Both the position numbers and the translations under genes were made by a program. This document shows positions 19,383 to 63,834 of a stretch of 64,000 bases of DNA, piece after piece; the first letter of the stretch is position 1, and each line of letters starts with the position of its first letter. The notes below the pieces were generated by a model. It searched no databases. It saw only the letters and a program-made list of their open reading frames with translations, and was not told the origin of the DNA. Source of the stretch: Siphonodentalium dalli (taxonomy: Eukaryota; Mollusca; Scaphopoda; Gadilida; Siphonodentaliidae); the NCBI GenBank assembly GCA_032622095.1, contig CP136064.1, positions 185,858,209-185,922,208 on the forward strand, read 5' to 3'.

Positions 19383-19726
19383 AGAATCCTGGACATTTCC
19401 CCACCTGACATTTCCCCACCCACCCTTGAAATGGCAAAGCGGACATTTACCCACCCGGACATATACCCACCGGACATTTCCCCACTTACTCAATATCAAA
19501 GCGGACATTTCCCCACCGGACTTCCCCCCACCTTTGACTGTTACTATGGGTGTGTGGTATTGACTATTACTACGGGTGTGTGGTAAAATCAGATTTATTT
19601 CAATGCATTTTATTAGCAGGGTGGGGAAATGTCCGGTGGGTAAATGTCCGGGTGGGGAAATGTCCGGGTGGGGAAATGTCCGCTTTTGAAAGTGGGTAAA
19701 TGTCCGGTGGGGAAATGTCCGGTTAC
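19383..19726. mobile_element. Non-autonomous element with GGACATTTCCCCACC word arrays
   Basis: The left half carries five to six forward copies of GGACATTT(C/A)CCCACC-like words. The right half carries the same word in reverse (GGTGGGGAAATGTCC), again five to six times. The 344-bp unit is bounded by exact 8-bp direct repeats TGAATAAT (19375-19382 and 19727-19734), a size typical of hAT insertions. Terminal inverted repeats start AGAATCCTGGACATTT / GTAACCGGACATTT. There is no coding capacity. Confidence 0.85.
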
Positions 19727-19819
19727 TGAATAATCCTTTTATAAGTTGTTATTGTTACAACTAAGTGCTCTTTCAATAACACAAAGACTAAGCTGCCCAT
19801 AGCCATAATGCCTGCACAC

Positions 19820-21087
19820 CAGGGTTGGGGCGATTACATACATGTACCAATGTAATCGATTACGATTACTTTTGATTTACATGATTATGATTACAATCAC
19901 TGATTACATTTTTTCCAATGTAATCGATTACGATTACAATTACTTTAGTAAATGTAATCGATTACTTTTTGATTACATCTGATTACAATTGTTGGTTTCC
20001 AACCATTTTGATGGCATAGGAATAAATAATGAAATAATTCAAATTAACATGTCTAATATGATTGAATAAAGACATCACTGCATAACATGGAAACAAGAAA
20101 CGACTGAAACAATAGAAAGATGCAAGCAAAAAACATAAAAACTTTTTTTTTACATTTACATGTATTGGAAAGGTTTCATCATGAAGTTATACACCAACTT
20201 ATTGGGAATACATTATGTTTTATTTGTATTTATTTATGTAAATAATTTTTAATATATTTTTAATTTTCTTACATGCATTCAAACAAACGCATAATATTTA
20301 TGAAAATATCACCAGAAACAATTATAAAATATTTGCATGTTCTGTTAGATTCAATACCCAACACAATTTTTTTTTTTTTTTTAAGTGAGTAGATGGGCGC
20401 GAAGCGCCCGGGATGGTCGAAAAGATCGAGTGATCTTCTCCTTCACCCCACACAATGAAGATAACATTAAGATTTATTTGATGATCATCCGTTGTTAATC
20501 CTGATGAGGATTAAATTAGGCTTAACTCCATGGGTGCAGTAAATGACAAACCAGCTAATTAGGTCTATGGATGTACTTCACACCTTCTTTGTTCAGTTAA
20601 TTAGCCCTATTGTACCAGTGTGACTTTACAGCCATTGTCTGCAGCAATCCCAATTCAATTTAATCTCAATTGAAGTTGGCTACCCTATTTATTCATATTA
20701 GAACATTTCATTTGTCTGTATCACAAGTTTATTGCTATTCATGCTGTATTCAACAAGTGTGTTGTTATCTGTGTCCACTGCCAGAATGTACATACACACT
20801 GTACCACTAACATAAGACATGACTCTAATATGGTGTATGTATCTTTGCACACTCCATAGTACCACAGTATGAGACTATGAGTATCCAATAGCCATCCATA
20901 TGGATATTTTAGTAAAAGTAATCAAAAAGTAATCAAAATGTAATCATGATTACAGGTACAATTGAATGTAATCAATTACGATTACGATTACTTGTAATCA
21001 AGAAATGTCATGATTACAGATGATTACTCCAAATTTTTTAATCGATTACTTTGATTACAATTACTGATTACGATGACCCCAACCCTG
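19820..21087. mobile_element. hAT-like non-autonomous transposon
   Basis: The ends are CAGGGTTGGGGCGATTAC and CGATGACCCCAACCCTG (inverted). The flanking 8-bp target duplication CTGCACAC is exact (19812-19819 and 21088-21095). The subterminal 170 bp on both sides are arrays of GTAATCGATTACGATTAC-type words, many self-complementary. The middle contains no transposase-like ORF. The 8-bp duplication and CAGGG-type ends are typical of hAT elements. Confidence 0.92.
20385..20450 (+). repeat. Hairpin repeat GGGCGCGAAGCGCCCGGGAT, copy 1
   Basis: GGGCGCGAAGCGCCC forms one hairpin and GAAAAGATCGAGTGATCTTCTC a second, ending CTTCACCCC. It follows a poly-T run inside the hAT-like element. Variants with the shared GGGATGGTCGAA core are at 53355-53430 and 53885-53940. 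This could be the conserved tail of a short retroposon or rolling-circle element; unresolved. Confidence 0.6.
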
Positions 21088-21403
21088 CTGCACACTAATT
21101 AACTGGCTGAATATCTTCCTAGCCGAATCTTCTCGCGAACGAAAAATACCTAGCTGAATCTTCCAGTTCCTCTGCTTATAATGCTCTATGACTATTGGGA
21201 ACTAGCGGTGATATTAAACACTGAGATAACACTCTCACAGATACACTGTAAGTGTACGTGAATGTTCAGACGACCACGATTCAATTGTAAATGGAAATTT
21301 TCGGTTGATTATAACTGTCGATTAGTCAATTATGAAAACTCATAATCGTGGCAAGTGGCAACCCTAGTTACCTCCACATGCTACAGAATCGCAGGCATGT
21401 GTA

Positions 21404-23275
21404 CCGTAAAATGGGATGATTTCGGACACTTTTCTCTTAAATGAATGAAATGGGTCGATATTTATGCTTGTAATTCAATAGAGGGTGGTAAGAAATAGGT
21501 TCAATTATCCTGCCATGTGCCTTTGATATTTATGTATCCATAGCAACGGCCCAAAACTCGTCCGAAGTCACCCCATGAAATAAAACTCCAAATTATACAG
21601 AGGATCCAGACTAAATGTACCTGGATTATGATCTCTTTTAATCAAAACGTTTCCTTGATAAAGCATATACCATTAGTATAGCTGCCCAGGAGCTATTATA
21701 GCTATCATTATATATATACATATATATAGGCCTACCCTGCAACTGAGATGGACCAACGTGCAATTCTAACAGATCATTCCACAATTTTCGCTGCAGTTAA
21801 AAAACGTTCAACAGCACGTGGAAAACAATCTACGGTCAGCTTGTGAAAAATTAAGTAGGTCATAACACAGAAGGCCTAATGGCGAATACATTGAAATTAA
21901 CAGGAATGCAAATGCAATGATAAGCTAATTCACGGCCCATCAAATGATGCAGGGACAATCATGGTGATTTTCACATGCTTGGGTCAGTTACATGTACATA
22001 TGTGTGAATAAATTTGTGGATATCATGCAGTATATTGATAGGAAATATTCCGACCTACAAACACGTACGATGTGTGTACTCTTCATGCATGTATAGGGCC
22101 TACGTGTATTTCTAATGACATAAGATCCAACGAGGAGAGCCACCACATACCCCATGCACTTCATATTCACACTGTTGACGGGGTGATTTCGGACAACACC
22201 CAAGGGGTCACAAAAACAAATATTGCAACATTGCTATGATGGCTTAAAGAATAATAAAAATTATACTTTCTTTAGAACTAATTACAAGCCTGGGCACATT
22301 TAATTTATTGTGAGATAGAAAACATTGACTATATTAGCAGTCGTGGCGGAAGATGCATACCCTTGTCCCAGAGGTATCTGGAGAAGTCGGCCCCGCGCGA
22401 AGTCGGCCCCATACGAAGACGGCCCCAGAGAAGTCGGCCCCATTAATTAGAAGGGATTAAATCGGCTTAATTTTATTGATATAGTGTTTATTTAGGCTAA
22501 TTATGAGGTCCCCAACTTAATTTGATTGATTTAGTGTCGTGTTTGTGTAGGCTAATTGTGAACATAGATCGTGACGACACCATTGCCTTTCACACTCCAA
22601 GACCAGTTTCTCCATCGCGCCATGTTGACAACCCACATAGCGACGACGACATTGTTTGAATTGTTAACTGTATTTGATATTGTTATATTGTCATTGTATT
22701 ATCAGTTTCATATTTCATAAAATAAATAAAGATTGATTTAAAACAATAGTTCTGTTATAAATGGGGCCGACTTCTCTGGGGCCCGTCTTCGTATGGGGCC
22801 GACTTCGCACGGGGCCGACTTCTCCTGTATTCGTCCCAGTTAGTGTCGGAAATCACCCCAAAGGAAAATCTGAAGGGGCCACAAAAGGGTGTTTCCAATA
22901 TGATATATCCAAAAGGTTGAGTTTTTGTTTTTATCTCATTTTAAACCACATAATTGAACATGCATGTTTATCAGTCATGATTTGGTTTCAATGTGTAATT
23001 CAATGAAATTATCAGGGCATATAAAGTTTTGACGTACATTAAAAAAACAAGAAAAACATTCAACTGCGTTAAAGAGCGTTCCTGATAATATCTTGAACAT
23101 ATTCGAGCTCAAACAACATTTAAAATGAAGCCATTGAAGGTCAGGGTTGATTGATGAGTAAACACAAGTGGATTTATAAAAGCTATGTGTCATAAGAAAA
23201 CTTTAGATGTTTGTACCCTTAAAGATTCATACTGTCCGAAGTCACCTCGCTGTACGAAATCACCCCATTTTACGG
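21404..23275. mobile_element. TA-flanked element with CCGTAAAATGGG ends
   Basis: TA-CCGTAAAATGGGATGATTTC on the left mirrors GAAATCACCCCATTTTACGG-TA on the right. The word GGGGTGATTTCGGACA or its complement recurs near 21417, 21555, 22180, 22845, 23235 and 23262. It is 1.87 kb with no transposase. The TA flanks are compatible with Tc1/mariner-like insertion. The GAAGTCGGCCCC element at 22380-22825 sits inside it. Confidence 0.75.
22380..22825. mobile_element. Element with 66-bp inverted arrays of GAAGTCGGCCCC
   Basis: Each end carries four words in a row (GGAGAAGTCGGCCCC, GCGCGAAGTCGGCCCC, ATACGAAGACGGCCCC, AGAGAAGTCGGCCCC). The two ends are almost exact inverted copies over about 66 bp. The core is AT-rich with two GATTTAGTGT/TAGGCTAATT repeats. 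No exact target duplication is seen. It is nested in the 21404-23275 element, whose own repeated word (CGAAGTCACCCC) is strikingly similar. Confidence 0.85.
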
Positions 23276-26011: not shown

Positions 26012-26056
26012 TTAACTATCAACAAGTTGTCCTACTTCTGGTAATTGGCCATTGAT

Positions 26057-27790: not shown

Positions 27791-30419
27791 TGCTATCATG
27801 TGATTTTATTATGTACATAGGTATATCTGTTAAATTAAATACGTCTTAACTTGTCCCCCTGATTGGTACCGGTAATGTATCCTGGCTGATGTACTAATAT
27901 ATACGTTAATGGCCATAGACGACACATTTAACTTACCAAATTAGAATAAATTACTGCGATGATAAATAAAGGGATATGCTGGATTTTGTCGACTGACATA
28001 ATAAATACGTTGATTGACAGCCGTCTTGTTCCAATAGACATTTCGATTACACCCTTTTACGACCGGGTAGCATCATATCGCACGTTCCTAATTTGATTTT
28101 CACGTGCCACAAATGTACATTTTTATATTTCCGCAGCCAATATTGCTACTTGTGCTAACAAATATTTATTAAAATGGTCAAATGTCACAGTAAATATATG
28201 AGCTGCATTAGATCATCCTACAAATAGTCCTTGAATGTCGAAATGTTTGACAGTTCCGCTTGTTTGTTATCTTAACTTGCACTTTAACTATCACAAGTAA
28301 CCATGAAAAAACCCCACACTCTTTTGTTAATGGTAGTCTTTTATATTTTAAAACTATAGATTAACTATATAGTTTACAATGTGCTAGAATTTATCCAAAA
28401 TACGACAAATTGTATCTTGTTTTAGTGGATATAAGTCACATGATAGCATGTTCCAGAAAATAACACAATATAACACAGTATAAACAGTAAACACCTTATA
28501 CACAATCATACACCTCTACCAGCCTGAGAACAAAAATTAGAATATCGGAATTGTCCGGTATAAGAGAAGAATCGAACGCATTCTGAGAGGTGCCACCCAG
28601 CACCGAACATGAAACAGTAAATTCTATGAATTCGGTAGGCGATATTGCCGATTTGCTTAGATTAATCGACTGGCGGATTTCAGCGTCGACTTGTTTGATA
28701 ATCGAGTCGACGCCGATTAGTCAAATAATTGTTTCAACACTAGTCAGAAACCATATATGCCTTGTGTAACAACAGTGAACTACTTGAAAAAGATCGATTG
28801 AACTTGAGAAGGATTGGTCAAGTTGACACGTTAAATACCAAATCCGAGTCGAATCGGTCGAGCAGTGTTCGAGTCTATAACACACATAGATACATGCATT
28901 CATACAGATATTCCAAAATGTATAATAGATAGCTACAAGAATTCTATGATAAATAGTTCACGGGCGACCTGATGCATGCATCTTAGTTTTCTTGTGTGAA
29001 CTTAATGCTGTAAACATAGTACAGTGAAAACACAAATTGGCTGCTGTACAAAGTGCAAGTCTTGACAGACAACATCATGAATGTATGGCGTTACTCTATT
29101 GGTTTGTTTTGTCTTGTTCGACCAATCGAATGGCTGCTCATGGAATTGTCGGCCTTCACCCCGAGTAAAGTACACATTTCGAGCAAGCCTGCGTTCAATA
29201 CCACTACGGGCCGAGGAGTGGATTTCCCATTTACGAGTGAATTTGAATCAAAGCCAGGCTATAACTACGGTTGTGCATATGCAACGTGCTGCTCTTTGTT
29301 TTCTCACTGCGTAGCAATTATAACCACGGTTGTTGGATATTTTTTTTATAATAATCCGCCGATAAATAGGCCAACATACAGGCTGCCATTGGATTTTAAT
29401 CTTTGCATGACTAAATCCTTTGGCCACATCCCTCATCCGATCATCACCAAACTTCACATGGATCTTCGAATCGGGGTGACCTCTAGATGGGAGCCAACTA
29501 ATACTATCTTATTATGAAAGTGATAATATACGTGTATTAATCGATGTACTTGGATAACAATTTCCAACAACTGATTATAACGCAGTGCGAGACGAGTTGG
29601 TGATATGAGCTCTGTGGACAGTTGGGAAGAAATTAGAGTGTTTTCACAAACTTGAAGGAATTAACCGCCCGATGTCCCAAGTACGTGAGTCATTCAGTTT
29701 TTAACCCCCCACCCCGCCAGTATAAGATATTATGGTAATTTTTGAGTAGTCGGTATGGATTGTAACCAATCAAAATACACTATCGTATACATGTATACAA
29801 CCGTTATGACTTATGAGGTGCAAAACCCAATGGAAGTCGCAACTTATATTTATTACTGCACGTAACCGAATGCCATTAGCAATGAGTGAAAGTTGTATAC
29901 AAAACTTGTGACTTGGAGGAACCGTGCATGCCCTCATTATAACGAACGGACAGTAGATATATGCCAATTGCCCTTGCAGTAGCTTAGCATTATCATTATC
30001 CTTCAATTAATTTATTTCTCATTCCTGTTTATCAGTGAAAAGTCATTTATGGATGATGAAGATCATCCAAACATTGCCCTTCTATCAGGAACCAGGCTAG
30101 AGGGCGACTTGTGAGATATCTTCTCCATAAAATGGGAAAGGTATGGATATACTGACATATATACAATATCCACTCTACTGTCGACTGCTCACTCGTCCTC
30201 TTTGGTTCCAGGTCACCAACGAGAGGCACACCTGTCGTTAAACGAGAATTCTGACATTTGAACATGACCAATGTCCTGCATACGTGGACATCTTGTAATG
30301 AACCCAGTGATATTGTGAAAGGCAACGCTTTCCATTCTTGGCGTTCATTCAAGCTTGTCGCCACTTACCATATCATTAGGTATGTTATTCACATAAACGA
30401 GTGAATAAATGAGTTCATT
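27791..30419. other. Intergenic, no supported gene
   Basis: The 154-codon plus ORF at 29053-29517 is not supported: its C-terminal part lies in a dispersed repeat (CTTTGCATGACTAAATCCTT) also present at 41540 and 42535. A fragment with GATTAATCGACTGG and GATTAGTCAAATAATTG ending CAACACTAG at 28650-28740 looks like a decayed hAT end. GTCGAATCGGTCGAGCAGTG at 28848 is shared with 24958. Confidence 0.5.
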
Positions 30420-31150
30420 TTGTGAAATCATAATTGAAATTGTGATATCACTAATTCATATCTGAAATAAATAGATAGAAAATGGCATAGCTGGACTACT
30501 TTTCCTTCAACATTTTGTGATATTATTAAATCATTTTATGACATCATAAAATTGAATTATTGATATCGCTAAATGCTTACTTATTTTGTGATATGACATA
30601 TTCGGTTTTTGTGATATCACAAAATGAATTTATGTTATCACTAGTTCCATTTTGTGATATCTTAAAATCATTTGTGATATAACTACATGTAATTCCCCAT
30701 AATTTAATGATATCACAAAATCGAATTATTGACATCACTAAATGCTTACTATTTTGTGACATCAATAATTCGATTTGATGGGTGGGATCCTTCATGAGCC
30801 AGTGGATGTGCTATCCTAGCGGAAACGAAATAGGAAGGAAGTGCATGAGTGGGAGACTGGGAGTGACACTGTGGTTTAGCAGCGAAATTTGATAATTACT
30901 GGTCCGATCAGGTCCCATATCATTTTGATCAAGAAGTGGATCTGCCACGTTCATCCGAATTATTGATATCACAAAATTAATATATCATATCACAAATTCG
31001 AATAAGTGATATCACACAATGAATATATTGTATAATAAAATCGAATATCACTAAATGCTTGCAATTTTATGATATACATGTATCATATATTCGATTTTTG
31101 TTATATCATATATATTCATTTTGTGATATCACAAAATGAATTATTGATAT
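30420..31150. repeat. Arrays of TTTTGTGATATCACAAAAT words
   Basis: The self-complementary word TTTGTGATATCACAAA and variants (GTGACATCA, GTGAAATCAT) recur about 20 times in two blocks, 30420-30780 and 30955-31150, separated by a 175-bp unrelated core. This is the same two-block layout as the hAT-like and GGACATTT elements, but I find no clean ends or target duplication. Confidence 0.8.
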
Positions 31151-31293: not shown

Positions 31294-31750
31294 TGAAGGT
31301 ATTATATATCACATGAAATAAAGAGTTTTATGCCTTTTTAACACAAATCAAAATCCTTAAAAGAAGCTGAAAAATGCATACATTTACGGCTTTGGTTGTA
31401 ACCATGGTAACGATTCACAACCGTATACGACAGTATTGCGTGATCTAACTGGCGACAAAAAATATAGTCTCCCAATTTGCCTCTTTGTTTTTGAGTCTAT
31501 TTTCATTTGTTCACCGAAGTTTGACAAGAATTTAACTTTAAAGTGATAGTACTGTTATTTCTATATGAAATTATTCTCGCCCAGAATAATCGGATTGCCA
31601 TGGTGGCGCGCGCACCAGCAAACCCAGGCCTTCATCGTAAATCGGTGTTTAGATATTGCAAGCATTGGTCGAAGGGTCAAGGGTCAGAAAGACCAGAATG
31701 CATCATCGATCTAAAAATAATGCTGACGGACACGCATTAATAATATAAAA

Positions 31751-31939
31751 ATGGCGGAACGTTTAAAAAATAGATTTGGAAGCGATCCGGGGGCTGTTAA
31801 TTGTTCATGCGGGAATCTATGCGCGTGGAGGAAGTCGGCCACGTCTCGTTCGTTGCGGACATCGTGTCCCTGTTTGGATGCGGGGACATTTTGCAGCAGA
31901 GGCTGCAAATGTGGAACAAGCAAAATGAGCTGTCACTGA
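31751..31939 (+). CDS. Candidate Cys-rich small protein or exon, function unknown
   Basis: The ATG is followed by GCGGAACG and preceded by TATAAAA. The 62-residue product has ten cysteines after residue 17, with CSCGNLC, SCPCLDAGTFC and GCKCGTSKMSC. The CxC...C...CxC spacing resembles zinc-binding Cys-rich tails seen in some eukaryotic regulators and transposon proteins, but I cannot name a family. The TGA at 31937-31939 is followed by 34 further in-frame codons before TAG, so sequence degeneration, splicing or readthrough are open. It could be a transposon relic. Confidence 0.4.
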   Translation: MAERLKNRFGSDPGAVNCSCGNLCAWRKSATSRSLRTSCPCLDAGTFCSRGCKCGTSKMSCH

Positions 31940-31961
31940 GTGTCAGAACCAGCCCAGGAAA

Positions 31962-32085
31962 ATGAAGATTGGCAAGAACTTGAAGAAGAAAGGGTCGATT
32001 TTGTCGGCAGAACTTGGGTTATCAAGTAGCGAAGACGATGCCGATGGTGAAAATGTCGACGATGTCGTCGTGAAAAAAAAAAGAG
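31962..32085 (+). CDS. Candidate first coding exon, function unknown
   Basis: An ATG-started segment of 41 codons plus one base ends at AAAAGAG|GTAAAA, a good splice donor. The peptide starts MKIGKNLKKKGSILSAELGL and continues with an acidic SSSEDDADGEN patch and a KKKR end. The composition is gene-like and codon use is unlike the AT-rich surroundings. It overlaps, in another frame, the reading that follows the stop of the Cys-rich ORF at 31751, so both cannot be translated as shown. No downstream exon is identified. Confidence 0.35.
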
Positions 32086-32328
32086 GTAAAAAATTGTATC
32101 ACTCTTCGCTATAAAATTGAAATTGATATCCACACAAATTCCAACAGGCAATATTAAAAAAAAAAATTTAGGCCTTACTATACTCTTGTCGTCTTGAAGT
32201 TGAAGGTCTCGTTATTCACCATTCAAATAGTACTAGCAGTATATGTAGCATGTGCATTGTTGCTGTTAGTACTAGTAGGCCTACCAAAAAAATTAATAAT
32301 ACTGTAATATTTTTCATGACCATGATTG

Positions 32329-33546
32329 GGCCTAAACAAAAAAGACGTTTGTTTCCGCTAACCCGACCGACCCTATTTTAAACCCCCGACCCTAAACTTT
32401 TTATTGCCATTGCAAAAACAAACAAAAATTGGACCAAAAAAAACATTTTTTTTTTTTTTTTTTTTAAATTTCAAAAATATTTTTAAGTTTAACAGTTGGA
32501 ATCATGTATGTTTGGCTTTATCTAGCTTTCATCTGTGAAAACTTCAAATAGTTTCAGTTCAGGTTTGTTATGATTCAGCCTTCAGACTTCAGTATTTCAA
32601 TCAAATACAGTACAGGACCATTAACAATTTGATCGAATCAACCTGGTTATCAGGTGGGATCTCATAATACCAAATGAAAAATTAACATAGAGATTGTACA
32701 TGTACTATAAATAGTAAATACTAACTAAATAGACATTGTTTCTGTACTACATGTAGTATATTATGTATGTGTCTCACTTGAATTTGATAAAATAGCCTAT
32801 TATATGAATTAGAGTGATAATGGTAAGTCTCATTTCAAGCAGGATAAGCATAATCCATTGAACCAAAAGATATCTGACAATAAGTTATAAGCATTTCCAA
32901 TCCATACATATATAAAAATTTCCAAAGTTATGCTTGAGAAACTTGATCAAATTGACCTCTCAGTAAAATTCAAAATACTGACTCAAAGTGCCCTAGATTA
33001 GCTCTAAATGCAATGGATTTTCAAAAAATTTCCAGCATCAGCAGGGGGTCACCCCTCCCAAGCCTTCCTCCGCTCAGGCCTTCAGGTTATGTCTTTGGCA
33101 TATCATTGCCCAAAAACAGGTGTCCCCAAAAAATACCTAGATCCTTCACCGAATTCGGAGGAGAAGGTGGGGTTGTGAAGCCATCATTAAGATATCGGCA
33201 CAAGACGGTCACTCCAATATGTGACAGTGCAGTGGTGCTGGACTGACTCCAGTTGTCGCCAGACCATATGGGAAATATTAGGATTATCAAAGACTATATT
33301 AGTATATAGACTAGTATATATGTAAATATTGAAGCATATGTAAGATTGAATTGGAGTTTTTAGTTCCTCTGTCATTTGGGTTAACCTGATTGGGGCTAAG
33401 AAGTGCATAGTTTGGGTTATTGACAAGTATTATACAGTTATTTTTAAAGATACTGTAAAAAAAAAAAAAAAGTTAAGCCTACCTACCTACCTACCCTAAT
33501 TTTTTTCAGCTCGTTAGCGGAAACAAATGTATAATTTGTTTAGGCC
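32329..33546. mobile_element. 1.2-kb element with GGCCTAAACAAA inverted ends
   Basis: GGCCTAAACAAA, then GTTTGTTTCCGCTAAC, on the left mirrors GTTAGCGGAAACAAATG and TTTGTTTAGGCC on the right. It includes homopolymer A and T runs (32437-32464, 33457-33471) and a CTACCTACCTACC microsatellite. There is no transposase and the target duplication is unclear. Confidence 0.7.
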
Positions 33547-33776
33547 TTGTGGAAAATTTTCCCAGATTGAATAAATTACAGGCCCAAATAATAGTACTAG
33601 TAGGGGTGGATTTTTTTTTCCCACATTGAGTTTCCAAAAGTTATTCTCAGATGGGCTAGTTACTATCAACGGAAAATCAAATATATAAGTTCTCTAATTG
33701 ATTTAATAACAGTATTTTATCTGCACAATACATGTAAGTCCATAATTTTGAGGCGAAGTTGATCGGAAGTGGGCAA

Positions 33777-35146
33777 CTATGGGAGGCCCTTTTCACATTT
33801 ATTATTTATTTGCGCTTAAGCGCAAATCATTTGCGCTTAAGCATAAAACAATTTGCCCTTAAGCACAAATCATTTGCACTAAAGCGCAAATATGTGTCTA
33901 TCAATTTATTTGCTCTTAAAGCGCAAATCATTCAAGTTTGCGGTTAAGCGCAAATACCTAGCACTCCCTTACTTCCCTCTGATTGTGAATGATTGAGTCC
34001 ATCTCATAGTAAATTATGATGGGCCCATAGTAATAGCCCCATACAGACTCGAAGTCCATATATCCATGTCAGCATCTCTGTCTCTGTCCCAGCATCTCTG
34101 TCCCTGGTGTCCCAGGAATTGGTGTCTCACTCCCAGAGCTCTAGTATATTTTATTAAAGGGATATCTCCTGCACAGATATATACCATTTCCATGGCCATA
34201 AAAAGGGAATTAAGGGTTACTACTATCTAACTTACCCATAAATTATTGGCATGACCTGGTGTATCAACTAGCAACACAAGAGGAGCATTGGGCTAATTTT
34301 AACCTGTTTTAATTAGCCTGAGTACTCAACAGTCAACTGTGAGTGTGTGTATAATCCCTAATTACATATTATCAGCATCCATCTATCCAAAGAATTTATG
34401 TCTCCTTCCCGGAACTCTAGTAATTTTTTGTATGATGTTTTTTAATGTATTATTGCACAGATTTGGGCCCTTACTATGGTCATATACTATAGCATGCATG
34501 TGGTGTCACTGCATGAGGGCTTGCTTACCTCATATGGTTTACTTATTGACTTAAATCAGAGGAAATAACCCTATTTTCATATTATCAGCATCCCTGTCAA
34601 AAAAGATTGGTGTCTCATTCCTGGAGCTTTGGTTTCTCAGTCCTCGAGCTCTAGTTCTTTTTATTGCACAAATCTATAGTATTGCCATGGTCATATAGTT
34701 CCACCGAGGGCTTGCTTCCCTCATATGGTGTGCCTGTATACTCGAAAATTGAGGAAAATCAAAGTCGCCCCGACTAATACAGAATAACTAATATATACTG
34801 AAGATATTATAATGCTATCACGAGTCGCTCCAACTAAAACAGAAGGTCAGCCATTTTGATAAAGAAGTTGGGCTAGCTCCCTACCCATCCAAACCAATGA
34901 AACCAAGAGGTGATATGTCAATAGGAGTTAATGCTAAGTTATGGAGAAATCTATTTATTCACCAGGGGTGTTTAGTTACCTATAACCATGAATTGCGCAT
35001 AAGCGCAATGATTGCACTGAAGTGTAATTATTTGCGCTTAAGCGCAATTAATTGCACTTAAGCACAATTGATTATGCTCAAGTGTTAAGTGCAATTGATT
35101 GTGCTTAAGCACAATTAATTATTAAATGTGAATTTGGCCTCCCATA
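33777..35146. mobile_element. CTTAAG-word element (TATGGGAGGCC ends), copy 1
   Basis: The left end TATGGGAGGCCC with TTTCACATTTATT corresponds to the inverted right end TTAAATGTGAATTTGGCCTCCCATA at 35122-35146. The interior has arrays of the self-complementary word ATTTGCGCTTAAGCGCAAAT and its degenerate forms at 33820-33955 and 34990-35110. It also contains the 240-bp segments described at 33960-36440. Non-coding. The end assignment is tentative because array material continues to the right. Confidence 0.65.
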
Positions 35147-35204
35147 CACTTAAGCATAAATCAAATTCCAGATCTCAAAACTCCCCTGGGGCTGAAATGA
35201 TGGG

Positions 35205-35229
35205 CGGGGGGGGGGGGGGGGGGGGGGGC
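35205..35229 (+). repeat. Long poly-G run
   Basis: An almost pure run of G (about 23 bases after GGGCG) lies at the junction between two CTTAAG-word segments. Similar runs are at 24814, 36703, 53369, 59250 and 61081. Confidence 0.95.
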
Positions 35230-35268
35230 TTTCATATTTATTATTTATTTGCAAATATTTGCACTTAA

Positions 35269-35901
35269 AGGGGTACTGTACCCCAATTTCAATAAATTCC
35301 CGGTGACAATAGCGATCTAATATGAATATTATATTATAAAATAACTAATTTGAGTCGACGATGTCTACTGAAAACGTTCCGGTTAACAGGCTATCGTAAA
35401 AGTTAAATTGAATTATTTAATATAAATTCATTTATGGCTGGAGTCATAAAATGGAGAATTATGCCATTACGAGTTACCGTTCTTGAAATCGCATATGTTG
35501 CATGTCTTTTATCGACGGCCGTTCGCGAACATTATTGAGTTGCAAACAAAACATGTTACCTGCAAAAGAAGGCCCGTTATAACCGATTCGGAAAAAAGGA
35601 GAAAGAAACAAAGAGTCAAAAATTTTATAGGGAGTGAGATTGTTCGATGGAAGAGATTGAATGCATCAATCGAAGCTGTGAGCAATGAACTTCCCGTTCT
35701 TCCTGCGACCGCGTCTTCTCCGGTGAAGGTTAAAAACATTGCGCGTAGTTTGAAATCGTAATATTTTTGTTTCCAAGATCAATATTTTCTTCGCTAAATT
35801 AGGTTTATACGAAACTCATATAACACGAACACAATCTAACTTGAAAGTTATTTCAATGGGAGTAAATAAAAAAATCGCCTATCTTTGTGTACAGTACCCC
35901 T
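35269..35901. mobile_element. TTAA-flanked element, AGGGGTACTGTAC family, copy 1
   Basis: TTAA occurs at 35265-35268 and 35902-35905. The ends are AGGGGTACTGTAC and the inverted GTACAGTACCCCT. The insertion lies inside a GCACTTAAG-type word of the surrounding array. Its left 190 bp (CAATAAATTCCCGGTGA, ATTTGAGTCGA, TTTATGGCTGGAG) match the reverse complement of the right part of the copy at 49198-49789. Confidence 0.9.
35483..35761 (+). CDS. Short basic ORF inside the AGGGGTACTGTAC element
   Basis: The 92-codon ORF lies wholly inside the TTAA-flanked element. Its middle is strongly basic (SEKRRKKQRVKNFIGSEIVR) and the end reads PATASSPVKVKNIARSLKS. No domain is recognised. The second family copy at 49198 lacks an equivalent long ORF, as far as I can see. 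It might be a captured exon remnant or chance. Confidence 0.3.
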   Translation: MKSHMLHVFYRRPFANIIELQTKHVTCKRRPVITDSEKRRKKQRVKNFIGSEIVRWKRLNASIEAVSNELPVLPATASSPVKVKNIARSLKS

Positions 35902-36440
35902 TTAAGCATAAATCATTTGCACTCAAGTACAAATATGCGTCTAACAATTAAATACCAAACTTGCTCTCCCTTACTTCCCTCTGATTGTGACTGATTTGAG
36001 TCAATCTCATAGTATATTATCATGGGCCCAAAGTAGTAGCCCCACACAGACTCAATAGTTGAAGAAAATTTCTGTCCCTGGTGTCCTAATAAGTGCCTCA
36101 CTCCCAGAGCTGTAGTATATTTTATTAAAGGGACATCTCCTGCACAGATATATACCATTTCCATGGCCGTAAATAGGCAATTAGGGGTTACTGGGGGTTT
36201 GCTTCCCTAATATATGGTGTACTTATTGACTTGAAATAGGGGGGAAAACCCCTATTTTCATAATATCAGCATCCCTGTCCCCAAGAATTTGTGTCTCCAT
36301 CCCTGAGATATAGTATTTTTATAAAAGAGACATATCCTGCACAGATCTATACCATTCCCATGGTCATAAAACATCTTGGGGTTACTGGGGGATTGTTTCC
36401 ATCATATGGTGGGTCTATATAAACTTTATTGATGTGTTTA

Positions 36441-37463
36441 GGCCTGTGCCATTTGAAATTAATTCATGGGGGAATCAATGTTTTGAGCTTAAGCGTAAAT
36501 AAATAATAAATGTGAAAATGCTTGAGGGATGAGGGTAAATAAAATATGCTTAAGTGTAGATCAATTATACCTAAATGTAAATTAGTTATGCTTATACATA
36601 AATAATTACACTCCCATAGAGCTCCCCTCAAGCTGAAATTGATGCAACCACATATATTGTCTGCATACCAGTAGAATCTTTCAATGGCAGATATTATATA
36701 CCGGGGGGGGGGGGGGGAGGGGGGGCCTTAGTGCAGCGGAGATGACATTAATCTATGTCTTTTTGCATATGGGACGGTGGGGTGAAAAAATTCCTTCACC
36801 ACACTATTACAAAAGAACCTTCCAGAAACGTAAAACTTAAATAAATAAACTTGTCTTGATGTCGCTAATGCATAGATCATTGTGTGAATGGAAAATGAGC
36901 GAGCAACTGACATTAAATGTCACTATCAACGGATAGAAAGTATCTGACTATCAATGGGTAAAAAATATCTGTCATCAGTGCATCAAGCCAATCAGTGAAT
37001 TATTTGCTTCTCTATCAACTAAGATGATCTCTGGCAAGACCTAAAGTATCCAAGTCTGATAGAGTGATGTGACTATGTTTATTTCCATCAAAACAGCTTC
37101 TGAAACAGGTTAAACTGTTATCTGAACTAAATGAGATAGATCATTCCCAGTCATATGAGTAATATCAGTACAGCTTTATTCAGTTTTGAACAAAATTTAG
37201 TGAAATTTGGGAGGTGGGTGTAAACAAATTGGGAGTAAAAAACATATTGGTTTTGCAGGTTTGGTGGTGATTGGTCCCCGAAAATGTATATGCAAAGTTA
37301 ATGCACATTTACTGATATAAGCTAATTATGATAAAACAATTCAATTAAGCTTTAAGCATAAATATATTGCTCTGAAGTATCATTGTATTTATGGTAAAAT
37401 CATAATTCAGTTACCCTTAAGTTGGCCTTAACCACCATTGTTTGTTTTACCTCTCTCACCTTG
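36441..37463. other. Intergenic; end of CTTAAG-word material and a poly-G run
   Basis: Degenerate TTAAGCGTAAAT and TTAAGTGTAGAT words run to about 36610, followed by a G-rich run at 36703-36726. No gene is seen. Confidence 0.5.
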
Positions 37464-47969: not shown

Positions 47970-48700
47970 GTCCCCCGAAAAAGTGGCAAGTCGATGCCGC
48001 TTTGTTAAAGAATTTTTTTTGAAATTTTGAAATGTTGAAATTTTCTAAGTCGAAAAGGGTTAATAACTCTTTCAAAAAATAATTTTTCCGTCCTCTATAT
48101 ACATGTTGCACATCTTCAATATATGGGCAACAATATTCTGAAGTTTCAAATCTCTAGGATGAAAACTGTGGGAGGAGTTTATTACACCATGAAGGTACCT
48201 TCATACAGAAAATTATAAAAAATGTTGAAATTTTCTAAGTCGAAAAGGGTTAATAACTCTGTTAAAAAAAAAAAATCCGTCATCTATATACATGTTGCAC
48301 ATCTTCAATATATGGGCAACAATATTCTGAAGTTTCAAATCTCTAGGATGAAAACTGTGGGAGGAGTTGATTACACCATGAAGGTACCCTCATACTGAAA
48401 ATTATAAAAAATGTTGAAATTTTCTAAGTCGAAAAGGGTTAATAACTCTGTCAAAAAATAAATTTCCGTCATCTATATACATGTTGCACATGGGCAACAA
48501 TATTCTGAAGTTTCAAATCTCTGGGATGAAATCTGTAGGAGGAGATGATTACACCATGAAGGTACTCAAAAGTGTGAAGGACGGACGGACGAACGGCTAT
48601 ACGCACCACAGGGTACTTGTGAGGTGCGATCTTTTGTTTGCATGACTTGTGGGGTGCACCCCACAAGGAACGTACGGAAAATCCAATTTTTTCGGGGGAC
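47970..48700. mobile_element. GTCCCCCGAAAA-ended tandem-repeat element, copy 2
   Basis: GTCCCCCGAAAAAGTGGCAA at the left mirrors TTTTTTCGGGGGAC at the right. Three or four units have the period marker GTCGAAAAGGGTTAATAACT at 48052, 48239 and 48427, so about 187 bp. The GGACGGACGGACGAACG tail is followed by unrelated sequence containing a GGTGCACCCCACAAGG palindrome. Confidence 0.78.
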
Positions 48701-48768: not shown

Positions 48769-50262
48769 TATGGGAGGCCAAATTCACATTTAAAAGCTAA
48801 TTACACTTAAGCTCACAACTCCATTACGATTAAGCGTAATGCCATTACACTTAAGTATAATTGCCTCACTCACAACTCCATTACGCTTAAGGGTAATGCC
48901 AAATAATAAAATAATAGGTTTTCATAGCCTTTTTACCTTACCATCTAAGGTACTAAAATACATGTATATGTCAAAAGTTACTAGCATCAGCAATTAATTA
49001 GCTGAAACCATTTCAGCTCCAGGGGAGTTTTGAGATATGAAATATGAATTATATGGAGTATGGAATTGCGGTTAAGTGTAATAGCATTACGCTTAAGCTA
49101 TCCCATTGGCATTATGCTTAAGCGCAATGGCATAATGCAAGAGCGTAATGGAAATCTGAAGTACGCTTAAGGCTAAGCGTAATGGCATTATGCTTAAAGG
49201 GGTACTGTACCCAAGATGTTGTTGTTGGTTTCTATAATCCCCGAGTCGGAGAATAATGTAACAACTTTTCAATTTTTTGAAAGTTTGTTGAGTACGAAGT
49301 ATTGTTACGGATGGCAAATTTACCGGAATGCAAAAATACAAATTGTCGTTGTCGAGTAATTTTTGTAAAGTTTTCAACCAAATGAATCAAATAAACATTA
49401 TATTATATGGTTAGTAGTCCCATATACTCATTTAAGTTAGTGTACCGTCACTAGTCAATGAATGGCTTGGGTTTTCTCCCCGTATAAGCATAATGTTTCA
49501 AACGATCGTGTGTGCAATTGTTTTCCTAATCCGGTATCCCTCAATTATAATTTGATTACGTTTTGTACACGGAAATTCGAATTTTAAGAGACGCCATTTT
49601 ATGGCTGGAGCCATAAAATCAATTTATATTAAATTATTAACTTTTAAATTATTAAATTTTAAGATAGCCTATTAACCTGAGCGTTTACAGAATACATCTT
49701 CGACTCAAATTACTTATATTTCTATATAGTATCGATAATAGATCGTTGTTATCACCGGGAATTTATTGAAAATGGCGTACAGTACCCCTTTAAGCGTAAT
49801 AGAATTATTCTTAAAGATATAATATGTACTTATTCGGGTTCGTGCAACTATTAAGTTAGTAGTCAGGCACTATGCCAACTGGAGGAATATAGCATTCTAG
49901 TAACATCGCCGAAAATTTCAAACAAATCGACAATACCAATCCACAGAAAACATCATCTCATTCATCTGAACTACGCGCAATTGTAAATATTTACTTCTCG
50001 ATTCGGGACACAACTATCTGCGATAAGCTAACAAAAAACGATTTCGCCATCGAGAGTCAATGTAATTAATTAATATATAAGAATGGCGGTGTTTGTTGTC
50101 AATTTCGATACAATATTTGTAAAAAATTACTACTTTGAGCAAGATTATTCTCCATTTCTATTTGATCACCCTACCTGAGTGTTTCACATCACTTTAAGCA
50201 GAATAGAATTACGTTTAGCAAGTTAAGCATAATTGGCTATTAAATGTGAACTTGGCCTCCCA
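48769..50262. mobile_element. CTTAAG-word element (TATGGGAGGCC ends), copy 2
   Basis: TATGGGAGGCCAAATTCACA at 48769 mirrors TAAATGTGAACTTGGCCTCC CAT ending at 50262. The subterminal regions are arrays of ATTACGCTTAAGCGTAAT-like words (48800-48900, 49070-49200, 50190-50230). The AGGGGTACTGTAC element at 49198-49789 is inserted in one word, and the element at 50269 has landed just outside the right end. Confidence 0.8.
49198..49789. mobile_element. TTAA-flanked element, AGGGGTACTGTAC family, copy 2
   Basis: TTAA occurs at 49194-49197 and 49790-49793. AGGGGTACTGTACCC on the left mirrors GTACAGTACCCCT on the right. It is inserted inside a GCTTAAGCG word. It is in opposite orientation to copy 1 (35269-35901) and otherwise similar mainly in the 190 bp next to one end. 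Confidence 0.9.
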
Positions 50263-50268
50263 TTTATT

Positions 50269-56446: not shown

Positions 56447-56918
56447 CAGCCCTGGGAATTAAGGAAAATTTGCCTAAGCAATATTTTTGCCTAGGTGAAA
56501 GAAATCGGCCTAGGCAAAAACAGATTTTACCTAGGAAATTTTGCAACAATATTGCCATCTCAAATCAATATGATTCAATAATAACCTGAAATGCTTAATT
56601 ATTTTGGAGAACATTTCCAGGCCACTACTCATCATATATATACATTCCACAAATCATCTCCAAAACTAGTGCCCTTATGGGTAGCTATAGTTAATGGCCC
56701 AGTGTCATGGAAACAATTTTAGGACAATATACCGGTATGTAAAGAGTGATTTAAGGAAGTCATTTTGGCTAAAGAGGTTCTATTTCTGATAGACACAAAT
56801 CAATTTTAGTAACCCAATGAGCTTGTTTTACCTAGGCAATATAAATGCCTAGGAAAACTGATTTTGCCTCTGCTTTTACCTAGGCATTGCCTATTGCCTA
56901 GGCTAATTCCCAGGGGTG
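56447..56918. mobile_element. Non-autonomous element with TGCCTAGGCA words
   Basis: CAGCCCTGGGAATTA on the left mirrors TAATTCCCAGGGGTG on the right. CATGTT lies directly outside both ends (56441-56446 and 56919-56924). The subterminal zones hold nine or so TTGCCTAGGCAA-like self-complementary words. The core has no ORF. Confidence 0.85.
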
Positions 56919-57811: not shown

Positions 57812-57829
57812 ATTTATTGACTAAATAAA

Positions 57830-58430
57830 AGCTGGGACAAAATTATGCATGTTGCGAAAAAATTTCTAAGTCGAAAAAGGGGGATAACTCCACCAGAAAA
57901 TGTCGGACAGACGTCATAAACGCAGGTGCAAAGGTTCCCATGGTACTAAATATATGTGCCAAGTTTAAAAACAATTGACCCAAAAATGTAGGAATAAAAG
58001 CTCGGACAAAATTATGCATGTCGCAAAAATATTTCTAAGTCGAAAAAGAGGGATAACTCCACCAAAAAATGTCGGACAGACGTCATAATCTCAGGTGCAC
58101 AGGCTCCCATGGTACTAAATATATGTGCCAAGTTTTAAAAGAATTGACCTAAAAATGTAGGAATAAAAGTTCGGACAATATTATACATGTTGCGAACAAT
58201 TTCTAAGTCGAAAAAGGGGGATAACTCCACCAAAAAAAGTCTAACAGACGTCATAATCGTAGGTGCACAGGTTCCCATGGTGGTTGATGTCTCTGCCAAG
58301 TTTCACAGAATATGATCATAAAATGACTGAGAAAAACTCCGGACAAAATTGTGTCCACGGACGGACAGACGGACGGACAAGCTGATACCAGTATACCCCC
58401 CCCCCCACAACTCGTTGCGGGGGGTGTAAA
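57830..58430. repeat. 169-bp tandem repeat with GGACGGACAGACGGACGG tail
   Basis: The period marker GTCGAAAAAGGGGGATAACT (or a variant) is at 57869, 58038 and 58208. Units include TGTCGGACAGACGTCATAA and CCCATGGTACTAAATATATG. The array ends with GGACGGACAGACGGACGGAC and a CCCCCCCCCCCACAACTCGT/GGGGGTG hairpin. It has the same architecture as 47970-48700 and shares the word TAAGTCGAAAA.GG. Confidence 0.85.
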
Positions 58431-60289: not shown

Positions 60290-60571
60290 ATTTTTATCAC
60301 TGACATCAGTAGGAGCCCCTCAATGGCCTCATGCCGTGGAGCCATTTGTCTCATTAACTCGATTCAGTAGATGTCACGATTGACCTGCTATTAGTATCTA
60401 ATACTAGTATTAGTAGGCCTATTAGTATTACTAGGCTACTAGTACTAACTTACCTAGTGGTTTATATTATAAATGAAAAAAAAATTGCTCCAAATCAAGT
60501 GGGTAGTAAAAAAAATTTGCAGGAAGGTATGCGTTTTTTTTTGGTGTCTGGCATTTTCAGATACCCACTAC

Positions 60572-61063
60572 TATGGAATCCTATTAGGGCCACTTGCTAA
60601 TGGCGCTTTCGGCGCACTTTTTGTCGCTTTCGGCGCTTTCGGCGCGCGCCGAAACATACCCTAATGGCGCACTTTTTGTCGCTTCCGGCGCGCGCCATTA
60701 GGGAGTGGACCTAATAGTATGCCTAATGGCGCTTTCGGCGCGCGCCGAAAGCGACAAAAAGTGCGCCATTAGTAACGCGCCGAAAGCGACAAAATGTGCA
60801 CCGTTACGGCGCACATTTTGTCGCTTTCGGCGCGCCGAAAAATGCGCTAATATCGCACATTTTGTCGCTTTCGGCGCGCGCGCCGAAAGCGCCGAAAGCG
60901 CCGAAAGCGACAAATAGTGCGCCGTAACGGCGCATATTTTGTCGCTTTCGGCGCATTCGGCGCTTTCGGCGCGTTACTAATGGCGCACTTTTTGTCGCTT
61001 TCGGCGCTTTCAGCGCATCGCGCCGAAAGCGCCATTAGCAAGTGGCCCTAATAGGATTCCATA
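60572..61063. mobile_element. Element of GCGCCGAAAGCGACAAA words with exact 6-bp target duplication
   Basis: The end TATGGAATCCTATTAGGGCC followed by ACTTGCTAATGGCGC is perfectly inverted at the right. CACTAC lies directly outside both ends (60566-60571 and 61064-61069). The relative at 24893-24905 (TACCCACCACCCCCAATC) shows the uninterrupted target type. The whole interior is a mosaic of GCGCCGAAAGCG and GACAAAAAGTGCGCC words in both orientations. The short ORFs on it are artefacts. Confidence 0.9.
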
Positions 61064-61074
61064 CACTACCCCCA

Positions 61075-61290
61075 AACCAGGGGGGGGGGGGGGGGGGGGG
61101 GGGGGTCGGAAAAAAATTCCAGGCACGTATGATGATTTTATTTTTTTCCTGCCTCGGGGGACCCACCCACCCAATTTCTTCCGTTTCCGGCCTTTTTTTC
61201 CAGGCAATTTTGGACACCCACCCTTTTTTTTCCGTTTCAGGAAGTTTTTTCCGGTCAGTTTTGGACACCCACCCCCCCTAAATTTGGGAA
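61075..61290. repeat. G-run repeat with GACACCCACCC words, copy 1
   Basis: A G run (61081-61105) is followed by GTCGGAAAAAAATTCCAGGC ACGTATGATG, then three CCCACCC-type words with TTTTTCCGTTTC between them. The first part occurs inverted at 62620-62660 next to CCCCCCCCC. Confidence 0.7.
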
Positions 61291-61615
61291 AATTATCAAT
61301 TGAGCAACCAAATAGCTGATTATCCTGCATTATCATAATTTATTGCGCGATATTTGAATAGAACAGTGCATAATGAGATAACGATACTATTTGAATTTAT
61401 CATATAAGTGTCATTAATCAAGAAATGTGTCAACATAATCACATTTCAAGGGATATATAGGCAGAGTGCCAAAGTTTTTATTAACATTCATTTTCATAAT
61501 ATATAGTCACATGATCTATAGTCACATAATCACATTTGAGTATTCTACAGAATACATGGTACTGGTACAACAAATTTCAAATTATTTGATATTTTGATAT
61601 TTGCTATGTGATATA

Positions 61616-61828
61616 CAGTAATGCCCTAATTAATCGACTCCATAACCACAGCAGAATAATAGGTAATTTTTCATGATTTAGTCGGAAATATGGCTTGTTG
61701 TCATTCATCGGAAAGCTCTCGGGGAGAGCTTTCCGATGAATGACAACAAGCCATATTTCCGACTAAATCATGAAAAATTACTCATTATTCTGCTGTGGTT
61801 ATGGAGTCGTTTAATTAGGGCATTACTG
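61616..61828. mobile_element. Palindromic MITE, CAGTAATGCCCTAA family, copy 6 (best)
   Basis: Both ends are intact (CAGTAATGCCCTAATTAATC and its complement). TA lies on both sides. The centre is GCTCTCGGGGAGAGC. A TA target and CAGT start point to a Tc1/mariner-type transposase acting in trans. Confidence 0.9.
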
Positions 61829-62997
61829 TATTGCTGGAATCAAATTGTTTATCAAAACATGTGGACATACAACTGTTCATCCCAGTTCATCCCAGTTTGA
61901 AGAATAATGCTAATACCAAAAATAACCATGATATACCCGCGCTACTCTTCTTGGGGGCATCTCAGAAACCAGAACTGGGGAAACATGTTATAGCGTGTAA
62001 TGGCAGGCTGGTAGCCACTGCCCGAATTAATAGGCTTCGTAATAATTGGGAATAATATGGATGGATAGCCCAATTTCACTTCTTTTTTGCTCACGATATC
62101 AGTGACGATAAAATCTTCATTACTGTGATTAACATTACAAGCTGATCCACATTAACATGGAAAACAATGTGAAATTGTTCAAGCTGGCCCGGCTGGCCTT
62201 CAATTTATTTGTTAAGATTTTATGTTTTACGTTGTCAAAAGTCTATTTTATTCCATTATTTATTATATCTTTATTTCCATGTCACATATGGTCAAGTGTG
62301 CTTTCATTTTATTACTTATTTTCAGCTGAGTTCTGCATAGTTATTCTTATTTTGTTGTATCAGTAGATGGAATCCTGATTAAATTTTATTTTTCCAATAG
62401 CGCAGTTTCTAGATCTATCAAGTTGAATTTGGGTTATTGTTGGCCATTGTGCAACTGATCCAACTTCTGATAACCTCTATATGTAGTATAGCATTACTAT
62501 TAACTATATATGACCCGTTTCTGTTCAAAACACATCAAAATAAGACTCAATAGCAGGAATGGAAAAAAAATTTGGCATATGGAAAAAACTGCTTTTTGGA
62601 CCCAAGAGACACCCACCCACCCCATCATACGTGCCTGGAAAAAATTCCGACCCCCCCCCTGCCCAAACCGGCAAAAACTATTTTTTGACACCCCCCCCAA
62701 ATATCGCTAATTTTGATCTAAAAACTAACATAAATATGGTGTTTTTGCAGTTATAATATGTTTTACTAGTAAGCTGTTACACATGTCCGATATGGGCACA
62801 AAAGGTCATCAGTAAAATATTTGCATGGTGTTGTAATAAATGCGTTTTTTGCCTCTAGGACCTGCATGCACTCACCCACCCCGGCATACCGATACCTTCC
62901 TGCAAATTTTTTATTTGATATTTTCTTATAGGTCTTATTATCACTAAAGTGTCATAACTGATGTCAACATACTTTTGTTAGGAATGGATATTATTAA
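61829..62997. other. Intergenic, no supported gene
   Basis: A hydrophobic 69-codon ORF at 62157 and a 74-codon ORF at 61831 have no recognisable features. The inverted copy of the GTCGGAAAAAAATTCC repeat is at 62615-62700, and a GGAAGGTAT-type fragment (complement) is at 62895-62915. Confidence 0.4.
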
Positions 62998-63129
62998 TTA
63001 AAGGTACTCAATCCGATCAGACAGTCCCCATACCATCAAAATATAACATCAACAACATTTCTTCAAAATACGCTTTAGTTAGCAGAATCGATTTATTGCA
63101 ACAAAATAATGCTAACCACTGTCAACTAT
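62998..63129. repeat. Repeat segment shared with 24581-24644
   Basis: TTAAAGGTACTCAATC, then CAGAATCGATT, ACAACAAAATAA and ACCACTGTCAACTATG, occur in the same order in both places. The present copy has about 55 bp of extra sequence after the first word. Confidence 0.7.
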
Positions 63130-63834
63130 GTACGGAAGCCTATTAGGGCCATTTATTTTTTGTTATATATTCATTAAAATATTTCCTTTTTTATTTAATT
63201 TTTTATATATATTCATTAAAATATTTCCTTTTTACTTTCTTTTTTTACTTTCCACCTGGGAGATAACTTATCTCCCTGGAAATAACTTATCTCCCTGGGA
63301 GAAAACTTTTCTCCCGGGAATTAACTTATCTCCGAGGGAGAAAACTTATCTCCCAGGGAGAAAACTTTTCTCCCGGGAATTAACTTTTCTCCCAGGGAGA
63401 TAACTTATCTCCCAGGGAGAAAACTTTTCTCCCGGGAATTAACTTATCTCCCAGGGAGAAAACTTATCTCCCAGGGAGAAAACTTTTCTCCCGGGAATTA
63501 ACTTATCTCCCAGGGAGATAACTTATCTCCCAGGGAGAACACTTTTCTCCCGGGAATTAACTTATCTCCCAGGGAGAAAACTTTTCTCCCGGGAATTAAC
63601 TTATCTCCCAGGGAGATAACTTATCTCCCAGGGAGAAAACTTTTCTCCCGGGAATTAACTTTTCTCCCAGGGAGATAACTTATCTCCCAGGGAGAAAACT
63701 TTTCTCCCTGGAATTAACTTTTCTCCCAGGGAGATAACTTATCTCCCAGGGAGAAAACTTTTCTCCCGGGAATTAACTTTTCTCCCAGGAAGATAACTTA
63801 TCTCCCGGGAATTAACTTTTCTCCCATGGTGGAA
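63130..63834. mobile_element. Element with TCTCCCGGGA word array, right end not seen
   Basis: The left end TACGGAAGCCTATTAGGGCC is nearly the same as the end of the element at 60572. From 63253 there follow about 580 bp of TTATCTCCCAGGGAGATAA and TTTTCTCCCGGGAATTAAC words, some 28 in a row, with high uniformity. The ORF here only translates the array. No inverted partner of the left end is found before the window stops. Confidence 0.8.

Follow-up and report, generated by a model that had tools for sequence, protein, structure and literature searches.

The question raised by a 64-kb stretch of the genome of the scaphopod Siphonodentalium dalli is what the short words are that fill, in many copies, the ends of nine of its mobile elements, and whether the elements carrying them belong together. 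The stretch, called here the window, is a piece of contig C4 (CP136064.1, positions 185,858,209 to 185,922,208) of a genome of 2.2 Gb in nine contigs, and the elements are named A to I in their order along it. At least three superfamilies of mobile elements are represented among the carriers, and the arrays move together with the ends of the elements. Those of the IS3EU type (D, E, F, H and I) follow one plan, composed of a terminus of about 22 bp starting with TAYGG, a short gap, and a word private to the family, mostly dyadic and mostly repeated about 21 bp apart, which is two helical turns. We read the words as arrays of binding sites, or phased operators, for each element's own transposase, which would set the specificity of the family and perhaps allow self-regulation, and we give this reading a probability of roughly 0.6. 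It is drawn from the position of the arrays, their phase where they are in tandem, the symmetry and privacy of the words, and their persistence in short derivatives.

All nine arrays named or implied in the preliminary description of the window are present and above chance. The count of the most frequent 10-mer, set against the maximum of 200 dinucleotide shuffles, was 8 versus 3 in A, 7 versus 3 in B, 6 versus 2 in C, 11 versus 3 in D, 7 versus 3 in E, 5 versus 3 in F, 3 versus 2 in G and 15 versus 3 in both H and I, while 146 control stretches of 700 bp from the same window gave at most 4 (a value reached in 3 of them). G passes only just by this measure; 7 occurrences of its core CCTAGG compare with at most 2 in 2000 mononucleotide shuffles. 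The word TTTGCGCTTAAGCGCAAA, reported also at 48769, has no match there at up to 3 mismatches, and the element at this place carries the version ATTACGCTTAAGCGTAAT. Self-complementarity, ascribed to most of the words, is seen in B, D, E, F, G and I and not in A, C and H.

Copies in the genome were searched for eight elements, F being covered through the ends it shares with E and not by a search of its own. The copies of each family are its best-scoring matches (40 scored among 169 to 5868 candidates per query), of which 3 to 20 loci, numbered here with an L, were fetched, so that word conservation is biased upward. E/F-type elements were also sampled through their ends, as 20 two-ended elements picked from 100 listed ends out of 6392. 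In the sampled copies ends and arrays travel together and the word is private to the family, both as expected beforehand. The number of words per locus, expected to vary within each family, does so in A (5-29), D (25-41), I (19-44) and H (13-20 in its usual copies, 24-58 in four loci with extended arrays, L037 having 58), is nearly constant in B (4-5) and G (6-8), and ranges from 7 to 10 in C.

TAYGG..CCRTA termini together with a 6-bp target-site duplication (TSD) are given as the marks of the IS3EU superfamily (PMC12730594, PMC10045372). Such termini are found in five elements of the window, all read on the forward strand except D, to which no strand is assigned. Element E (33778..35146) has the ends TATGGGAGGCC(CTT/AAA)TTCACATTTA and carries TTTGCGCTTAAGCGCAAA with decayed versions of it; F (48769..50264) has E-type ends, the right terminus being mutated. 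Element H (60572..61063), with TATGGAATCCTATTAGGGCCAC ends and the 6-bp TSD CACTAC, contains 18 copies of CGCTTTCGGCGC at up to 1 mismatch in inverted blocks. Element I (63131..64000), of which only the left end lies in the window, has the terminus TACGGAAGCCTATTAGGGCCA and an array at about 63254-63834 of CTCCC(A/T/G)GGGAG-type words, with CTCCCAGGGAG at steps of 20 and 39 bp. Element D (30414..31150), truncated in the window, carries TTTTGTGATATCACAAAA with 11 of 17 steps of 20-23 bp, and is placed by its right end only: the relatives of D end in ...CCCRTA in 7 of 10 loci, as judged by eye. Both ends of H are of this type, and so are both ends of I in L096 and L093+L121. Of 9 I loci examined for a TSD, 2 had both ends, with agreement in 5/6 bases in one and 1/6 in the other.

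The E/F terminus pattern has 6392 matches in the genome and its reversed control none; a second terminus pattern, TAYGGARGCNYATTRGNGNCA, has 613 against 1. In E/F the TSD agrees in 6/6 bases in 13 of 20 elements and in 5/6 in 5 more; in H the figures are 12 and 3 out of 21, the other six including L037-L040, which had been picked for their extended arrays. By their ends D, E, F, H and I thus appear to be of IS3EU type, and E/F and H also by their 6-bp TSDs.

Behind one and the same terminus the words may be quite different. Twenty of the 613 TAYGGARGCNYATTRGNGNCA ends were sampled from the first 100 listed, short two-ended elements and rare end types being favoured. Five words stand behind this single pattern: GCTAATTAGC in 7 ends, CCTAATTAGG in 8 (in L143 a single word, found by eye), and CTTAATTAAG, a TTTGCGAT-like word and CTCGAAATTTT in one each; the remaining two of the 20 (L137 and L142) have no word. 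An exact 6-bp TSD flanks 8 of the 10 two-ended elements among them, where L127 and L128, and likewise L131 and L132, have TSDs in common and are perhaps duplicates. These derivatives measure 0.4-1.5 kb; in 9 of the 10, words stand within 200 bp of each of the two ends, the exception being L132, with words at a single end.

Taken over all IS3EU-type loci, about 18 different words were found behind related termini of about 22 bp, and 12 of the 18 are perfect dyads; the array consensus contains a dyad of at least 12 bp at 9 of 15 loci. Word and end are also associated in E/F, where three letters of the terminus mark subtypes. Going inward, the first 1 kb contains TTTGCGCTTAAGCGCAAA at 26 of 35 CTT-type ends (GTT and CTA included) and at none of 65 A-type ends (Fisher p ~1e-16, for 100 ends listed on contig C1 out of the 6392, which are not fully independent of each other). 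Conversely 34 of 42 listed TTTGCGCTTAAGCGCAAA words adjoin such an end, after 8 of the 50 listed words were dropped as lying beyond 39.5 Mb, where the list of ends stops. The A-type copies that were fetched carry ATTGCGCTTAAGCGCAAT, ATTACGCTTAAGCGTAAT (L161) or AATTGCGCTTCAGCGCAATT (L158 and L164, with an asymmetric 2-bp centre), and the first base of the half-site is T in 114/116 cases in CTT copies versus 21/122 in A copies. The versions TTTGCGCTTAAGCGCAAA, ATTGCGCTTAAGCGCAAT and ATTACGCTTAAGCGTAAT differ at family level in both half-sites and follow the subtype of the end. Departures from the half-site core within a copy are G>A or C>T in 88 of 108 cases, 51 at the core CpG and 37 at the letter which marks the ATTACGC version; CpG decay throughout was considered as the source of all these changes and set aside, as it fits just 51 of the 108. 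Like halves are joined more often than at random in the GCTAATTAGC group (39 words mixing CAGC and GTGC versus 59.5 expected, n=127).

The proteins that might read these words were sought through the integrase-core family PF24764, which has 126 matches in the genome (150 scored of 241 candidates) and none in 14 control genomes. Fourteen loci were chosen from the 126 matches, some of which are fragments of one gene, to span the groups of score and open reading frame (ORF) length. A private array of 5-74 copies is present at ten: CACGGCAAAA in L119 (24 copies), CCTAATTAGG in L120 (74), CTCCCNGGGAG in L121, which is element I (19), GCGTTTAAACGC in L122 (27), CTGATATATCAG in L123 (34), CGTGGCCACG in L124 (41), GAGATCTC in L125 (17), CGAAATTTTAAC in L126 (5), and TATCTGCATA in L114 and L117 (24 and 30), which form one clade and have this word in common. 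The commonest steps are 20-23 bp. A link to a whole element is seen in I, where a PF24764 match lies in a 371-aa ORF between the two ends of a copy running from L093 into L121, whose ends match in 20/20 bases and whose TSD agrees in 5/6. The preliminary description called for a search for autonomous relatives with the same ends; long relatives having the same arrays and a transposase exist for I and, as described below, for A. No transposase was found linked to D, E/F or H, the search in E/F being an inspection by eye of three long copies; these copies (L164, L165 and L166), considered as autonomous elements, contain no transposase among their ORFs of at least 90 codons.

In all eight loci measured (about 3 kb covered per flank) the exact words are confined to the 5' side of the gene, and the gap from the array to the presumed ATG is 55, 59, 81, 95, 96 and 97 bp in six loci and 391 and 526 bp in two. 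Upstream of the array a related terminus was recognised by eye in seven loci, for example TACGGAAGCACTGTAGCGCCAC in L122, TATGGAAGCGTATTGGTGCCAC in L120 and TACGGCGGCCTGGAACCGCCAC in L123. The distance from terminus to first word is 16-29 bp in six loci and about 100 bp in I; in L119 the two overlap. This arrangement is also what would be seen if the words bound a host protein or drove transcription, as promoter, enhancer or silencer arrays of the transposase gene, all the more as six of the eight arrays are less than 100 bp from the presumed start codon. In contrast, nine of ten short derivatives have retained words at their two ends, and the words differ from family to family while a single host factor would be expected to impose a single word; we regard this explanation as improbable.

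Among seven long transposases, all with different words, identity to the first in the alignment is 37-49%; for this alignment the start of L121 was set at a GTG and L125, with its frame break, was left out. PF24764 is found in all of ten aligned members and PF00665 in five, and the profile of the ten matches the integrase core of human T-lymphotropic virus 2 in the PDB (E 0.002). Towards the N-terminus the proteins have a stretch resembling a helix-turn-helix (HTH), LGL..DI...L....GI..S.RTL.R.L...L.RR. The N-terminal region is less conserved than the core (mean identity 37.1% versus 48.8% over 21 pairs). As a structural relative for it the PDB gave only GST chains (E 0.86), which were rejected. 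The clade of L114 and L117 represents a second type of IS3EU-like transposase, which has an additional domain at the N-terminus that looks SAM-like by eye. The 21-bp word of this clade is not palindromic; in L114 the other side of the gene carries 18 copies of the unrelated GCAGCATTAA, mostly at 37-bp steps.

Spacings of 18-24 bp predominate in the GCTAATTAGC group (100 of 116), the CCTAATTAGG group (99 of 119) and I (193 of 228); in the MULE-type elements the steps are 15-16 bp. Arrays of this kind could in principle be minisatellites, grown inside transposons by slippage or unequal exchange and without any selected function, their dyads arising or being maintained by template switching in quasi-palindromes. 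They do consist of tandem units with variable copy number (5-29 in A, 25-41 in D), array segments or ends are piled up in H (the 58 words of L037) and in I, the phase is loose in H and D, and two satellite DNAs of oyster are listed under IS3EU in one table of PMC8268682. What such growth leaves unaccounted for is that several unrelated words have the same step of about 21 bp in IS3EU-type elements, and of 15-16 bp in MULE-type ones, that the array has a fixed position behind the terminus and before the gene, and that the version of the word tracks the subtype of the end. We consider a purely minisatellite origin unlikely.

If the words are instead operators of the transposase, the parts can be put together as follows. 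A dimer of the transposase would bind each dyad through its N-terminal HTH-like domain, and with a phase of 21 bp the dimers would lie on one face of the DNA, so that the array could gather many transposase molecules beside the conserved terminus, which the catalytic domain would cut. Families would be told apart by the word rather than by the terminus, and short derivatives could follow a given enzyme by keeping both. As the array stands beside the start codon, the transposase could also regulate its own gene. Once altered, a word might spread through the array as its 21-bp unit is converted, slips or is exchanged unequally, and it would persist where there is a DNA-binding domain to fit it. 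From sequence comparison we infer binding, self-regulation and orthogonality; the co-evolution of word and binding protein suggested in the preliminary description is consistent with the IS3EU data.

A more far-reaching version, which we hold tentatively and with rather more doubt than belief, is that IS3EU elements use a modular recognition code, in which a common catalytic terminus is combined with a phased dyad array, concertedly renewed, that pairs with a diverging HTH. Families would then be mutually deaf, ParB-like spreading along one face of the array would concentrate the enzyme and shut its own gene, and new "languages" of this kind would have arisen repeatedly in one genome.

Several observations weigh against the operator reading. 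At four of the 14 transposase loci (L113, L115, L116 and L118) nothing comparable to these arrays lies within 3 kb (L113 has six repeats in steps of 146-164 bp and L116 a few in steps of 26-35 bp, both more than 2 kb from the core); one of them, L115, represents a group of about 20 similar matches, and L126 has just 5 words. Six of the 18 words (H, L119, L126/L135, L114/L117, L141 and L158/L164) are not perfect dyads. In the CCTAATTAGG group the outer letters mostly differ between the halves (92 mixed versus 57.2 expected, n=120), so the symmetry is strict in the inner part only. The share of 18-24 bp spacings is smaller in D (100 of 246), E/F (48 of 89), H (25 of 202) and L158/L164 (3 of 14) than in the tandem arrays, which the 21-bp rule fits best, and the hAT-like G also has 55 of 112 spacings in this range. 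The restriction of the words to the 5' side in eight of eight loci fits a promoter role too. Both ends were found at two transposase loci only, I and, weakly, L124, the other matches from a search for whole transposase-bearing IS3EU elements by TA..TA ends and TSD being judged spurious. The HTH assignment comes from sub-threshold Pfam matches and has no meaningful relative in the PDB, and some sampled copies with common TSDs (L127/L128, L131/L132 and L147/L165) may derive from one insertion.

Some features of the IS3EU-type elements of the window and their copies are recorded here in their own right. No TSD belonging to E itself was seen in the window; E sits within a larger repeat of at least 5.6 kb (31700-37300), which shares 98.8% identity with L075, a locus on a different contig. 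F holds a nested TTAA-flanked element (49197-49794) with AAGGGGTACTGTACCC ends, inserted in the TTAA centre of an F word, and the same type of end follows E from 35265 onward; on these two observations CTTAAG words may serve TTAA-specific transposons as landing sites. Copies of I stand end to end at C7:77679333-77697284 and C7:17694606-17708388 (L095, L097 and L108), in tandem with units of roughly 2.8 kb and 6.4 kb, which looks as though they had transposed into their own ends.

Element A (19384..19726, forward strand) has inverted arrays of GGACATTTCCCCACC at both ends, 12 copies at up to 2 mismatches, with spacings of 15-16 bp in 7 of 11 steps. Its TSD in the window is imperfect, agreeing in 8/9 bases (TGAATAATA / TGAATAATC), and among its relatives (L061-L074, 14 loci) looks similar by eye in L065, L070 and L072. 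A is of MULE type, as follows from a complete copy of 1,989 bp at C7:34602428-34604416 (L109+L071), which has an exact 8-bp TSD, AAAGTTAC, A arrays at both ends and, between the arrays, an ORF scoring 37.7 bits against PF10551 (cut-off 27.6). This copy is inserted at the edge of an open-frame minisatellite in which GSWIDTPSKVTTP is repeated about 30 times (L109:3521-4819).

Element C (22373..22832, forward strand) has GGTATC...GTATTC ends, an 8-bp TSD (7/8 bases here) and inverted arrays of GAAGTCGGCCCC, with 7 copies at up to 1 mismatch in 15-16 bp steps. Among 13 copies the TSD agrees in 8/8 bases in 10 and in 7/8 in 2, and fails in L087. The outer ends of A and C are alike (GAATCC/GGTATC) and both have 8-bp TSDs. 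In a long relative of C, L111, two arrays of C words enclose an ORF that is MULE-like by eye and has no Pfam match; no TSD is visible around this copy. C is probably of MULE type. It is nested in an element C' (21404..23275, forward strand; direct reading), absent from the list in the preliminary description, which is flanked by TA and contains the word TGTCCGAARTCACCCC at several places; in outline this word resembles those of A and C.

CAG..CTG ends, together with an 8-bp TSD, are a mark of hAT elements. Such ends (CAGGGTTGGGG) are found in B (19820..21087, forward strand), a nonautonomous element with the 8-bp TSD CTGCACAC and 5 copies of GTAATCGATTAC at up to 2 mismatches; the TSD agrees in 8/8 bases in 18 of 21 copies, and by ends and TSD B looks hAT-like. 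Less surely so does G (56447..56918, forward strand), from its CAG-type terminal repeats CAGCCCTGGGAATTA and a TSD which is CATGTT in the window and 5-6 bp family-wide (6/6 bases in 11 of 21 copies, 5/5 in 7); its word is GCCTAGGC. TSDs of 5 or 6 bp are given for the groups called hAT5 and hAT6 (PMC12730594).

With these elements in view, the single class of word-array transposons proposed in the preliminary description, to be understood as of common origin, can be judged. The layout is indeed alike by eye. The TSDs, however, are of 8 bp in A, B and C, 5-6 bp in G and 6 bp in E/F and H, the termini are GAATCC/GGTATC versus CAG..CTG versus TAYGG..CCRTA, and the transposases are of MULE type in one case and integrase-core proteins in the other. 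Termini, TSD length and transposase together give at least three superfamilies, and a common origin is hardly credible.

Outside the elements, inspection of the window by eye shows tandem repeats of about 170-180 bp at 48040-48600 and 57850-58360. The two look unrelated to each other, and each is followed by a GGACGGACGGAC-like stretch.

The arrays touch an old question, namely how transposases pick their own copies among thousands of relatives and how families split, for which there are few natural series. One genome here offers about 18 words behind related termini, several beside a transposase that probably reads them, and some families in which the word is found in two or three versions, so that a direct test of protein-DNA co-evolution is possible. 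Mutually orthogonal pairs of operator and HTH could be obtained from them. They also suggest that some minisatellite-like short tandem arrays are working transposon ends.

In sea urchin TU elements the terminal inverted repeats are composed of tandem repeats. This is also the case in the foldback element Tetris (PMC4079207), as in the elements described here, with units of about 220 bp in Tetris; a private short dyad is not described in its abstract. For the MULE part, the Aedes aegypti elements Muta1 and Muta5 are reported to have an 8-9 bp TSD, a short terminal motif and subterminal repeats of 12 bp (with 3-4 bp spacers) or 15 bp, which differ by family and vary in number among derivatives, and such repeats are counted in 10 of 12 families with long terminal inverted repeats (PMC5225508). 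A and C agree with these two elements in layout (terminal motif, 15-16 bp steps, variable number, family word). The nearest tested case of a reading like ours is the hAT element Hermes, where a pair of BED domains attaches cooperatively to subterminal repeats that form a quasi-palindrome, phasing matters, and the multimer gathers N-terminal binding domains to find the end (PMC10368747). Hermes differs in having four named left-end repeats, against arrays of up to 74 words here, and a BED zinc finger in place of an HTH-like domain. The IS3EU superfamily as described (PMC10045372, PMC12730594) agrees with our elements in TAYGG..CCRTA termini, 6-bp TSD and an integrase-like DDE transposase; the word "subterminal" does not occur in the main texts of either paper, nor "tandem repeat" in that of PMC12730594. 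Literature searches turned up no subterminal word arrays in IS3EU, subscription literature and Repbase entries being outside their reach. The MULE and hAT parts are thus additions to known kinds, and what is new are the arrays of IS3EU, with related termini and about 18 words behind them.

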